NCBI RefSeq assembly: GCF_000466385.1
Contig: NZ_KE952759.1
Span: forward strand, 1-50,100
From: Aneurinibacillus aneurinilyticus ATCC 12856
GTDB taxonomy: Bacteria > Bacillota > Bacilli > Aneurinibacillales > Aneurinibacillaceae
Direction: 5' to 3'
Length of the DNA stretch: 50,100 bases
Position 1 is the first letter of the stretch. Each line of letters starts with the position of its first letter. Shown piece after piece: positions 16,305 through 50,100 of the stretch. The notes below the pieces were generated by a model. That model saw only the letters and a list, made by a program, of their open reading frames with translations. It did no database searches and was not told the origin of the DNA. A program made the translations under genes and the position numbers.

Positions 16305-16364
16305 ATCTGAGACCAGGAATATAATGTCATCCGTTTATAAGCCGATGACAGGTCAATGATACCA

Positions 16365-16445
16365 CTTCCCTACGCTGGTATAATCCAGATCAGGTTCAAA
16401 GGGATTAAGGTTATACCTTATCTCAGCCATATTGGCACCCCTAGT
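16365..16445 (-). promoter_or_regulatory. TPP riboswitch (THI box)
   Basis: Read on the minus strand, the conserved TPP aptamer cores are all present: AGGGGTGCC, GGCTGAGATAAGG, CCTTTTGAACCTGATCTGG and the closing TACCAGCGTAGGGAAG. Spacing fits the P2-P5 layout with a short P3. Together with the downstream hairpin at 16277-16304 it should repress tenA-ykoEDC when thiamine pyrophosphate is abundant. Confidence 0.96.
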
Positions 16446-16469
16446 GGACTTTCTTATGAAATTACCCGT

Positions 16470-19648: not shown

Positions 19649-19774
19649 ATGGCGACAAAAGAAGAATTTGTCGGATCGCTTCACGATATGCCTGTCAAAG
19701 CCGCCTGTATACAAAGCGTTGCTGCCCGTGCTCGCAATGAGCACGGATTTCCTATCTATATACATCTGATTTGA
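19649..19774 (+). CDS. Short ORF whose 3' end lies inside a family A repeat
   Basis: A 41-codon frame from ATG 19649 (MATKEEFVGSLHDMPVKAAC, ending FPIYIHLI). The first 36 codons look like a genuine protein start, 10 bp after the preceding gene and behind a GGAG. The last five codons and the stop are supplied by the inverted end of a family A repeat (TATATA at 19757). I read it as the N-terminal stub of a gene cut off by repeat insertion or by a repeat-mediated deletion. Confidence 0.4.
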   Translation: MATKEEFVGSLHDMPVKAACIQSVAARARNEHGFPIYIHLI

Positions 19775-19797
19775 TAAATCGACACATTTTGGTGGGG
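19757..19797 (-). repeat. Repeat family A, right-end fragment (inverted)
   Basis: TATATACATCTGATTTGATA and the following AATCGACACATTTTGGTGG match, in reverse complement, the right end of the element at 41757-41952. Only about 40 bp is kept. It lies between the truncated ORF and the MBL hydrolase gene. Confidence 0.8.
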
Positions 19798-19811
19798 GGC
19801 TTTATCTTCCA

Positions 19812-21974: not shown

Positions 21975-22062
21975 TTTTTCGACCGTGCCCACCCACCGCC
22001 CTTCCTTCTTTTCTTACCTCTTACCACAAAAGTTTGTCGATTTATCAAACCAGATGTATATA
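21975..22062 (+). repeat. Repeat family A, right-half fragment
   Basis: From TTTTTCGACCG through CCGCCCTTCCTTCTTTTCTT to GATTTATC and GATGTATATA, this 88-bp segment aligns with the right half of the full element at 41757-41952. The left half is missing. The end supplies an ATG to the short ORF at 22055. Confidence 0.8.
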
Positions 22063-22424: not shown

Positions 22425-22471
22425 CCCTTGATAAACCAAAATGTGTTGATTTATCAAATCAGATGTATATA
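22425..22471 (+). repeat. Repeat family A, right-end fragment fused to family B
   Basis: GATAAACCAAAATGTGTTGATTTATC to CAGATGTATATA is the right end of family A, joined directly to the family B end at 22366-22424. Both lie between the operon promoter and the first start codon at 22533. Confidence 0.78.
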
Positions 22472-40012: not shown

Positions 40013-40111
40013 GCAACATCCCCTGCTTTAATCTTGTTGTATTCGTATTCCAGTCCACAATAATCTGTCCATTGTTTTTAGTATGTTTTAAAGTGGTATC
40101 AATGATACGAG

Positions 40112-40193
40112 CGTATCCCCCCGTTTCTTTTTTCCGAATCTCCTCCTTCCAACCGCCTGAACTTTTGTTACTGTGTCAAGTGATTTCTATATA
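40112..40193 (-). repeat. Repeat family A, left-end fragment (inverted)
   Basis: TTCTTTTTTCCGAATC, CTCCTTCCAACC and TGTCAAGTGATTTCTATATA match, in reverse complement, the left 80 bp of the element at 41757-41952. The right half is absent. It lies in the divergent promoter region between ypmS and the GntR gene. Confidence 0.78.
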
Positions 40194-41756: not shown

Positions 41757-41952
41757 TATATAAATTACACTTGATATTTTGACAGGGGAATGTGGTTGGA
41801 AGGAGAAGATTCGGAAAAAAGAAGGGGATGGATGCGCCCTGCGCTCCAGCAGAAGGAAGACCAGCGTGCCTTTTTCCAACCGCCCATCGCCCTTCCTTCT
41901 TTTCTTGCCTCCACCAAAAACATGTGTTGATTTATCAAATCAGATGTATATA
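41757..41952. repeat. Repeat family A, apparently complete MITE-like copy (196 bp)
   Basis: Both ends start with TATATA; the left end TATATAAATTACACTTGATA and the reverse complement of the right end TATATACATCTGATTTGATA match at most positions over about 27 bp. The interior is itself an imperfect palindrome: GGAAAAAAGAAGG on the left against CCTTCTTTTCTTGCC on the right. It encodes no transposase. Six other copies or fragments are in this window. The element ends 21 bp before the hutG start codon. Confidence 0.78.
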
Positions 41953-41973
41953 CAAAAGAAAGAGGAGATACGA

Positions 41974-42954
41974 ATGTATACAGTAACAGACGAAAAATGC
42001 TGGACGGGAAGAATAGACAGTGAGACGGAAGTAAATATGTTCAGGCTGCATCAGATTGTTAGAATAGAGGATGTATTGTCATTTAATGTAAAGCACAAAG
42101 GTATGGCCATTGGACTTATTGGTTTCAGATGTGATGAAGGCGTGCGCAGAAATAAGGGAAGGGTGGGTGCGTATAAGGCCCCTGATGCGATTCGCGAAGC
42201 ATTGGCCTCTTTTCCTTGGCATTTTGACGATTCAGTGGTTTTGTATGATTTTGGAAATGTAAGCTGCGATGATAAAGAATTGGAAGCAGCACAGGATGAA
42301 TTGGGAGAGGCAGTTAAAAAAATGCTGGATGCGAATATATTTCCTATCATTATTGGTGGTGGACACGAGGTGGCATACGGACATTATGTGGGTGAGAAGC
42401 GACACCTGAAAAATCAAAAATCAATCGGAATCCTTAATTTTGATGCGCATTTTGATATGCGTCCGTATGACCAAACCGTAAGCTCAGGTACGATGTTTCG
42501 GCAGATTGGAGACGAGCTTGCTGCAGAGAATAAACCGCTCCGCTATATGTGTGTCGGAATTCAAAAAAGCGGCAATACAAAGCATCTGTTTGCAACGGCG
42601 GAACAGTATGGATGCGAATATATTCGTGAAGATGAAATTTATTCATTTGGTCCGGAACATATAATAGAGCGAATTCAAGCGTTTATGGATGCAAATGAGG
42701 CGGTTATGCTTACACTATGCAGTGATGTACTGGATGCGAGCTGGGCACCTGGTGTCAGTGCACCGCAGCCATTTGGTCTGGAACCGAAGATACTGAGACG
42801 CCTAATGAAAGCGGCTATCCAAAATCGGAAAGTGACCAGCTTTGATATTGCTGAAATTAATCCAGAGCTGGACGAAGACGGGCGTACAGTAAAGCTTGCC
42901 GCATCGCTTTTGTATGAGGTTATCGAGAGCCTGTGCCAAAGGGAAGAAGAATAG
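41974..42954 (+). CDS. hutG: Formimidoylglutamase HutG
   Basis: A 326-residue arginase/ureohydrolase-family enzyme that hydrolyses N-formimidoyl-L-glutamate to glutamate and formamide in histidine degradation. The manganese motifs are present: GGGHEVAYGH, NFDAHFDMRPY and the later SDVLDASWAPG, SFDIAEINPELD. ATG 41974 follows GAGGAG. The frame is open 65 codons further upstream, but that part lies in the family A repeat and is not part of the enzyme. No other hut genes are nearby. The repeat sits where the promoter and leader would be. Confidence 0.92.
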   Translation: MYTVTDEKCWTGRIDSETEVNMFRLHQIVRIEDVLSFNVKHKGMAIGLIGFRCDEGVRRNKGRVGAYKAPDAIREALASFPWHFDDSVVLYDFGNVSCDDKELEAAQDELGEAVKKMLDANIFPIIIGGGHEVAYGHYVGEKRHLKNQKSIGILNFDAHFDMRPYDQTVSSGTMFRQIGDELAAENKPLRYMCVGIQKSGNTKHLFATAEQYGCEYIREDEIYSFGPEHIIERIQAFMDANEAVMLTLCSDVLDASWAPGVSAPQPFGLEPKILRRLMKAAIQNRKVTSFDIAEINPELDEDGRTVKLAASLLYEVIESLCQREEE

Positions 42955-45579: not shown

Positions 45580-45599
45580 GAGGCTCAGTACATATCCTT

Positions 45600-45706
45600 C
45601 CTTATCTTTCAGAACCATGTGTTCTGTAGGATGTAGCACCTTGCGGACATACCGCCGGTTGCCGGGCTTCATCGGGCCTATTCCCTCCGCCGCTCTTGAT
45701 AAGAAA
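45600..45706 (-). promoter_or_regulatory. SAM-I riboswitch (S box)
   Basis: Minus-strand reading shows every S-box core: CTTATCAAGAG with GGCGGAGGGAA, GGCCCGATGAAGCCCGGCAA, AAGGTGCTACATCC, and CAGAACACATGGTTCTG as P4, closed by AAAGATAAGGA pairing with the 5' TTCTTATC (P1). The attenuator at 45551-45579 follows. SAM binding should stop transcription of the hydrolase gene. Confidence 0.96.
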
Positions 45707-47673: not shown

Positions 47674-47746
47674 TCGTCTACCGCCCTTCCTTTTTTCTTG
47701 CCTCTTACCACAAACATGTGTCCATTTATCAAATCAGATGTATATA
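47674..47746 (+). repeat. Repeat family A, right-half fragment
   Basis: TCGTCTACCGCCCTTCC, TTTTCTTGCCTCTTACCAC and ATTTATCAAATCAGATGTATATA match the right half of the element at 41757-41952. The left half is missing. It lies 170 bp upstream of the Sda-like gene. Confidence 0.8.
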
Positions 47747-48661: not shown

Positions 48662-48742
48662 GTTCTATGCGGAAGTACTTTCCAAAATGACGTTTAATAG
48701 CTCTATTATAGTACGATGTTGTAAGTCAACAAGCAGATTAAC

Positions 48743-48886
48743 GAAAGAAGGGGATAGATGCGCCCTGCGCTCCGGCAGAAGAAAGGCTAACGTGTCTTTT
48801 TCCGACCGCTCTCGTCCACCGCCCTTCCTTCTTTTCTTGCCTCTTACCACAAAAATGTGTCAATTTATCCAATCAGATGTATATAA
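48743..48886 (+). repeat. Repeat family A, copy lacking its left end
   Basis: GAAAGAAGGGGATAGATGCG, then CTGCGCTCCGGCAGAAG, CCGCCCTTCCTTC and AATCAGATGTATATA match the element at 41757-41952 from its position of about 60 to its end. The left inverted repeat is replaced by unrelated sequence. It abuts the CRISPR leader. Confidence 0.8.
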
Positions 48887-49104: not shown

Positions 49105-50100
49105 GTTTTATCTGAACGTAGTGGGATATAAAGTTTTTTGAAACCCTTTAAAACGGCCATCTGATAGCAGTTTTATCTGAACGTAGTGGGATATAAAGAC
49201 ATGAGGGATGGATGGGGCACTACGTTGAATAAGGTTTTATCTGAACGTAGTGGGATATAAAGAAACGAACGCTCAACAATCTTGGCCCATCTGTCATTGG
49301 TTTTATCTGAACGTAGTGGGATATAAAGCATTTATATTTGCATTAGTAAAAAATGCGGATTGGGTTAGTTTTATCTGAACGTAGTGGGATATAAAGCGGT
49401 ATCATACGGTCATTTTTGTTAATAGATATTTTTTGGTTTTATCTGAACGTAGTGGGATATAAAGCAGCTTGTGCGAATTCCAACTCCGAGTTTGCATAGT
49501 GTTTTATCTGAACGTAGTGGGATATAAAGTAGCTCTGGCAGCAGCCCGAGTGGGCTTGCTGTTTAGTTTTATCTGAACGTAGTGGGATATAAAGAGTTCT
49601 CAGTAGCTTCATTTGCTTTAGATGGTGCATTTGTTTTATCTGAACGTAGTGGGATATAAAGGGAATTCGTTGTATGCGATACTCTTCCGCCCGCCTTGTT
49701 TTATCTGAACGTAGTGGGATATAAAGTTGAATCTTATAGGCATCATCAGAATCTGTATCTCTGGTTTTATCTGAACGTAGTGGGATATAAAGCTATATCG
49801 CGGAATTATGGTTGACTCTGATTTTAAAGTTTTATCTGAACGTAGTGGGATATAAAGTGAGAATTCAACTTCATTCCTTCCTTTTGACGGTCTTGTTTTA
49901 TCTGAACGTAGTGGGATATAAAGAAACATATGGATATCGACCGACTCACACGTATTTCTCTTGTTTTATATGAACGTAGTGGGATATAAAGCCGTTTGCA
50001 GAGCACTTGGTTAGAGCGAACCTTCCAGAGTTTTATCTGAACGTAGTGGGATATAAAGTGTTAATCTGGTCATTGACCAACGCTTTAATATCATGTTTTA
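49105..50100 (+). CRISPR. CRISPR array, type I-B-like repeats, running off the window
   Basis: Fifteen complete 29-bp repeats plus the first six bases of a sixteenth (50095). Repeats start GTTTTATCTGAACGTAG and end GGGATATAAAG; starts are 49105, 49170, 49234, 49300, 49368, 49436, 49501, 49566, 49633, 49698, 49764, 49829, 49895, 49963 and 50030. The fifteen spacers are 35-39 bp and all different. The repeat at 49963 has one change (TATATG for TATCTG). The pattern GTTTTAT...AAC...GG.AT.TAAA resembles C. difficile type I-B repeats, giving an expected 8-nt crRNA handle ATATAAAG. No cas genes lie in the window. Confidence 0.98.

Follow-up and report, generated by a model that had tools for sequence, protein, structure and literature searches.

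A palindromic, MITE-like repeat family with IS630-like ends in Aneurinibacillus aneurinilyticus and a sister species

The element upstream of hutG and its relatives in the window

The region described here lies in a stretch of 50,100 nucleotides from Aneurinibacillus aneurinilyticus ATCC 12856 (contig NZ_KE952759.1, positions 1 to 50,100; hereafter, the window). At positions 41974-42954 of the plus strand, the window carries hutG, a formimidoylglutamase gene of the arginase family (TIGR01227, 298.8 bits over the cut-off) whose closest named relative, in Aneurinibacillus thermoaerophilus, is 65% identical. The right end of a short repeat that we term family A is 22 bp upstream of the hutG start codon, and the ribosome-binding site of the gene falls outside the repeat. 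The gene is a neighbor of the element and not a part of it, and the only ORF listed over the repeat (41779-42954) extends hutG in the upstream direction.

An earlier note on this DNA, made from the sequence alone, placed the element at 41757-41952. The location stands, but the outer TA on each side (41757-41758, preceded by a C, and 41951-41952) is duplicated target, a duplication seen at the empty sites of other copies, and the element proper therefore spans 41759-41950 on the plus strand. With the boundaries set by those empty sites and the copy itself recognized by both nhmmer and blastn, the element comprises 192 bp that are palindromic throughout and contain no ORF of their own; in being short and lacking a transposase gene it conforms to a MITE. 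The terminal repeats, each including its TA, read TATATAAATTACACTTGATATTTTGACA at the left (41757-41784, plus strand), which resembles the IS630 ends of the genus, and TATATACATCTGATTTGATAAATCAACA at the right when read inward (41925-41952, minus strand), the family consensus of which was also compared with IS630 ends. These terminal inverted repeats, another MITE trait, are imperfect, with 19 of 28 bases matching in the window copy. Family A matches its own reverse complement over the full length, so the interior is palindromic as well, and the earlier description of imperfect inverted repeats around a palindromic core is confirmed.

That description also counted seven copies or fragments in the window, and all seven were recovered near the positions given, with E-values from 3e-4 to 4e-61, by an nhmmer model built from genome copies of the family; a blastn comparison of the element with the window returned the same places and no others above noise. 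In addition to the full copy at 41757-41952 (plus strand, model positions 1-203, E = 4e-61), a nearly full copy without its left end lies at 48718-48885 (plus strand, model 39-203, E = 5e-45). Right-half fragments are located at 21975-22062 (plus strand, model 116-203, E = 2e-22) and 47675-47746 (plus strand, model 131-203, E = 2e-14), and right-end fragments at 19757-19799 (minus strand, model 161-203, E = 7e-7) and 22435-22471 (plus strand, model 167-202 over 22435-22470, E = 3e-4, with the exact right-end pattern at 22447-22471). A left-half fragment is present at 40109-40193 (minus strand, model 1-83, E = 3e-10). Most of the fragments in the window do keep the right half, as had been remarked, but the preference does not extend to the family, which has 37 left-end-only versus 38 right-end-only copies in 2.4 Mb; the surplus is an accident of the window.

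Copy number, target sites, and distribution

The source genome (G000) is a 5.3-Mb draft of 285 contigs, and the sister Aneurinibacillus species G002 is ≈90% identical to it and collinear over long stretches. A genome-wide search, suggested earlier as the test that a lack of further copies would decide, instead found many: G000 contains 127 matches to the right-end pattern and G002 contains 227, the reversed control pattern is absent from both genomes, and family A candidates number 257 and 363, respectively. The family is thus dispersed at high copy number, as expected of a MITE. Although the arms are rich in purines and pyrimidines, a chance or low-complexity similarity is vanishingly improbable; it is ruled out by the control pattern, with 0 occurrences against 127 and 227, and by E-values that reach 4e-61.

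Copy statistics cover 1.20 Mb of G002 together with 1.18 Mb of G000 that come from a nonrandom set of contigs known to carry copies. The G002 portion gave 61 hits, or ≈50 per Mb and ≈1% of the sequence, and 44 of these have both ends, compared with 19 of 89 in the G000 portion. Across the combined 2.4 Mb, 63 copies have two ends, separated in nearly every case by 168-203 bp. In G000, the 40 best-scored copies share 79-89% identity with the window copy, and mean divergence from the consensus is 8.6% for G002 copies and 14% for G000 copies. Lower divergence and more complete copies in G002 suggest that the burst there was younger or longer lasting than that in G000. Apparent 100-bp insertions were seen in three G000 copies; the case on C81 is a run of N and hence an assembly gap, and the other two are of about equal length.

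Copies in G002 are clustered, with 17 neighbors less than 2 kb apart versus 5.9 expected. About eleven copies are packed densely into the 18 kb of G002 C4:774757-792758 (L143, L144), a region with few long ORFs. Alignment of the copies also revealed a second type of right end, GTAAATTTATAAAGTGAGATG, and interior blocks that alternate between copies in shuffled-looking combinations, for example CCGACCGCTCCCGCCCACC versus CTAGTCTCTGATTTT; exchange between copies is a possible cause of this alternation.

Sites that are filled in one genome and empty in the other establish the ends of the element and its target, with the reservation that the two genomes differ by ≈10% and such comparisons are therefore imperfect alignments. 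At G000 C215:32296-32497, the filled site reads CATCATC-TA[element]TA-GAAGTGAAAGGGG, whereas G002 has the empty CATCCTC-TA-GAAGTGAAAGGGG (in a shorter view, CATC-TA[element]TA-GAAGTGAAAGG versus CCTC-TA-GAAGTGAAAGG). The sites at G002 251860 and G000 C171:1755 have a single TA after C on the empty side as well. A single TA in the other genome at all three sites identifies TA as the target duplication expected of a MITE, and the determination of ends and target duplication that the earlier note had called for is thereby obtained. The empty sites of G002 C4:132635 and G000 C171:18000-18194 contain ≈6-15 extra bases in place of a plain TA. These extra bases (TATATAAA and TATATGAATGTAATAG) resemble element ends and may be remnants of excision or deletion.

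The duplicated TA is preceded by C in 52 of 64 copies and followed by G in 48 of 71, even though TA in the genome is found less often in the context C-TA-G (1.9%) than in any other. Duplication of TA is a hallmark of the IS630/Tc1/mariner family (PMC2170065), and IS630 is described, in a passage of PMC6811581 citing Tenzen and Ohtsubo 1991, as preferring TA within 5'-CTAG-3'. In both its TA target and its CTAG preference, family A behaves as an IS630-type MITE would.

Bulk amplification is confined to two of seven Aneurinibacillus species. A blastn search of the five remaining species of the genus detected no copy, and the order's other genera yielded a single weak match to one arm, within the taxonomic family; plasmids, phages, and viral contigs gave no match to family A. 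Among 398 Bacilli genomes, the left-end pattern has no carrier outside the genus; inside it, the two sister species carry the pattern in bulk, and G001 and G005 carry one or two copies. Locus L223 in G005 holds a related element, complete at 226 bp, that has the family A ends around a different core. The related copies in G001 and G005 indicate that family A predates its two main host species and was amplified in them. Two partial resemblances were also recorded. L218 in G001 (around 1150-1520) is the left half of a related element beside a small ORF, putatively Hfq-like as recognized by eye, and L041 in another genus of the family (G009 C43:21363-21447) is a weak left-arm match (71%, E = 7e-4) that is maybe a distant relative.

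Relation to the IS630 elements of the genus

Both genomes contain IS630-family transposases (DDE_3 domain, NF033545), with 12 DDE_3 loci in G000 and G002 together. The ends of these resident elements start with TATATA, several with a preceding C, as in family A. When the IS630 loci were scanned with the family A ends, both IS boundaries in L261 and L262 emerged as the top two hits, and the best single match, 22 of 28 bases, was that of a multi-copy element in G005 to the left end of family A. Over the inner 22 bases, ten IS ends compared with the two family ends gave 249 matches, a score that none of 20,000 joint shuffles reached (maximum 235). Family A ends are, by this measure, IS630-like. 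The IS630 elements of the genus (L206/L207, L213, L261, and L262) share with family A the TATATA ends, often after C, the 28-bp repeat pattern, and the TA target; unlike family A, they measure about 1.1-1.2 kb and carry a transposase gene. Their inner 22 end bases have 8-16 in common with family A, and the interiors of those in G000 and G002 are unrelated to it. The two copies L206 and L207 in G002 are 1.17 kb long, 99.8% identical, and contain two adjoining ORFs; this element was apparently active recently and perhaps uses a frameshift.

A search for an IS with matching terminal repeats, also proposed in the earlier note, succeeded in part, in that related IS630 ends exist in the genus but no exactly matching IS was found. 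None of the 12 DDE_3 loci in G000 and G002 has ends identical to those of family A (best resident, 20 of 28), although the G000 draft breaks at repeats and the absence there is not firm. No longer element bearing both family A ends was found in either genome, and the family A interior matches none of the resident IS630 elements. A live pair, though not necessarily a relic, would be expected to include an autonomous IS that shares the ends of the element within one genome, and this set contains none. Family A appears to be of the IS630 type, with its exact driver transposon lost or diverged.

The IS630-type ends could also mean that each repeat is left over from the interior or the termini of a longer IS630 element and is not a mobile unit in its own right. 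We regard this as very improbable, given that in nearly all of the 63 two-ended copies the ends lie 168-203 bp apart, that the interior is unlike that of any resident IS630, and that the empty sites point to a unit inserted whole. The possibility raised earlier that the copies are inner parts of a longer known IS or gene is contradicted by the same constant, two-ended unit.

The evidence instead favors a MITE moved in trans by an IS630-family (Tc1/mariner-like) transposase, a reading that we hold to be very probable on the combined strength of hundreds of copies, defined ends, TA duplication, CTAG preference, presence or absence in sister genomes, and IS630-like ends. The initial proposal of a nonautonomous, MITE-like mobile family is borne out by these observations. 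In the mechanism that we envisage, the transposase would bind the 28-bp ends, excise the element, and join it to a TA. The palindromic interior would be a by-product of the origin of the element and not an RNA function, and insertions into genes would be eliminated by selection. The original driver is presumed extinct or diverged in G000 and G002, and the family may or may not still be mobilized by those resident IS630 elements whose ends are related to its own.

The closest described relatives in behavior are RUP of the pneumococcus and the Correia elements of Neisseria, both compared here by description. RUP of Streptococcus pneumoniae, for which mobilization by IS630-Spn1 has been proposed (PMC2229807), is similarly short and without an ORF, is present in about a hundred intergenic copies, and has a terminal TA, a target duplication, and IS630-like ends (PMC2229807). 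It differs in that it is 107 bp long and its ends closely match those of IS630-Spn1, whereas family A is a 192-bp, full-length palindrome for which no matching IS was found. Correia/NEMIS elements resemble family A in being short and repeated, in their TA-type terminal repeats, and in having filled and empty sites that show insertion (PMC2229807), but they are about 107 or 155 bp long, occur in another genus, and are reported to contain an IHF site and putative promoters. In the literature searched, we found no description of a MITE in Aneurinibacillus. Family A is a previously undescribed representative of a known class, the IS630-type MITE, and leaves the existing understanding of MITEs unchanged. 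It adds a large, well-delimited example from a Gram-positive genus, with filled and empty sites and a measured CTAG preference, and offers a usable case for MITE multiplication without a resident twin transposase, with a burst in two of seven species. Its repeats also help explain breaks in the draft genome.

Folding, genomic placement, and other features of the window

Single copies fold more stably than shuffled sequences, with z = -3.7 for a typical G002 copy and -2.0 for the window copy. Such values are compatible with REP/BOX-like structured elements kept for an RNA hairpin role (terminator, mRNA stability element, or riboregulator) and not transposons at all, but any long palindrome would fold well. 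RNAalifold on 48 aligned copies produced no full-length consensus structure and only nine pairs, none of which (0/9) has changed on both sides, so that the compensatory change characteristic of a structured RNA family is lacking; Rfam likewise has no family over the element. The folding of copies, recommended in the earlier note, thus gave stable single molecules without a structure conserved across the alignment.

Placement and orientation bear on the same alternative. With gene calls made by a simple longest-ORF rule, none of the 63 two-ended copies lies inside an ORF (at least 150 aa, whole without the element), although 72% of CTAG sites are coding, which argues that insertions in genes have been removed. 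In G002, 33 copies lie in tandem gaps, 8 in convergent gaps, and 10 in divergent gaps, compared with expected values of 31.0, 8.4, and 11.7; placement among intergenic gaps is roughly proportional to the available space. Between codirectional genes, 35 copies lie with the direction of transcription versus 12 against it (20 versus 9 in short gaps only, p = 0.06), and a terminator-like hairpin with a T-run is present in 15 of 60 copies in reverse reading and in 0 of 60 in forward reading. The orientation bias and the reverse hairpin hint weakly that selection acts against reverse copies in operons. These two features, together with the single-copy folding, speak for the structured-RNA reading. 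We nevertheless consider that explanation distinctly unlikely in view of the RNAalifold and Rfam results, the space-tracking placement, and the TA duplication, empty sites, and CTAG preference, all three of which are transposon traits. An IS630-type MITE remains the preferred reading.

The earlier note had placed the copies in intergenic leaders, where they might affect nearby expression. The intergenic location holds, but the role in expression is not supported by the space-proportional placement, the lack of a conserved RNA structure, or a consensus scan of the window copy, which found no outward promoters. It is conceivable, if unlikely, that family A has been partly tamed, with reverse copies that carry the terminator-like hairpin depleted between codirectional genes and with insertion and orientation tuning operon read-through in the two species after the extinction of the driver.

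Three further features of the window were recorded, all on the minus strand. A TPP riboswitch (16350-16452), over the Rfam cut-off, precedes a TenA-like gene cluster, and a SAM riboswitch, also over the cut-off, lies at 45599-45705. A CRISPR array (Rfam CRISPR-DR43) at 49105-50058, which reaches nearly to the end of the window, contains the repeat CTTTATATCCCACTACGTTCAGATAAAAC 15 times. On G002 C4, matches (94-100%) to three of the spacers lie near 693.5, 1026.5, and 1057.5 kb, at sites that are perhaps prophages.
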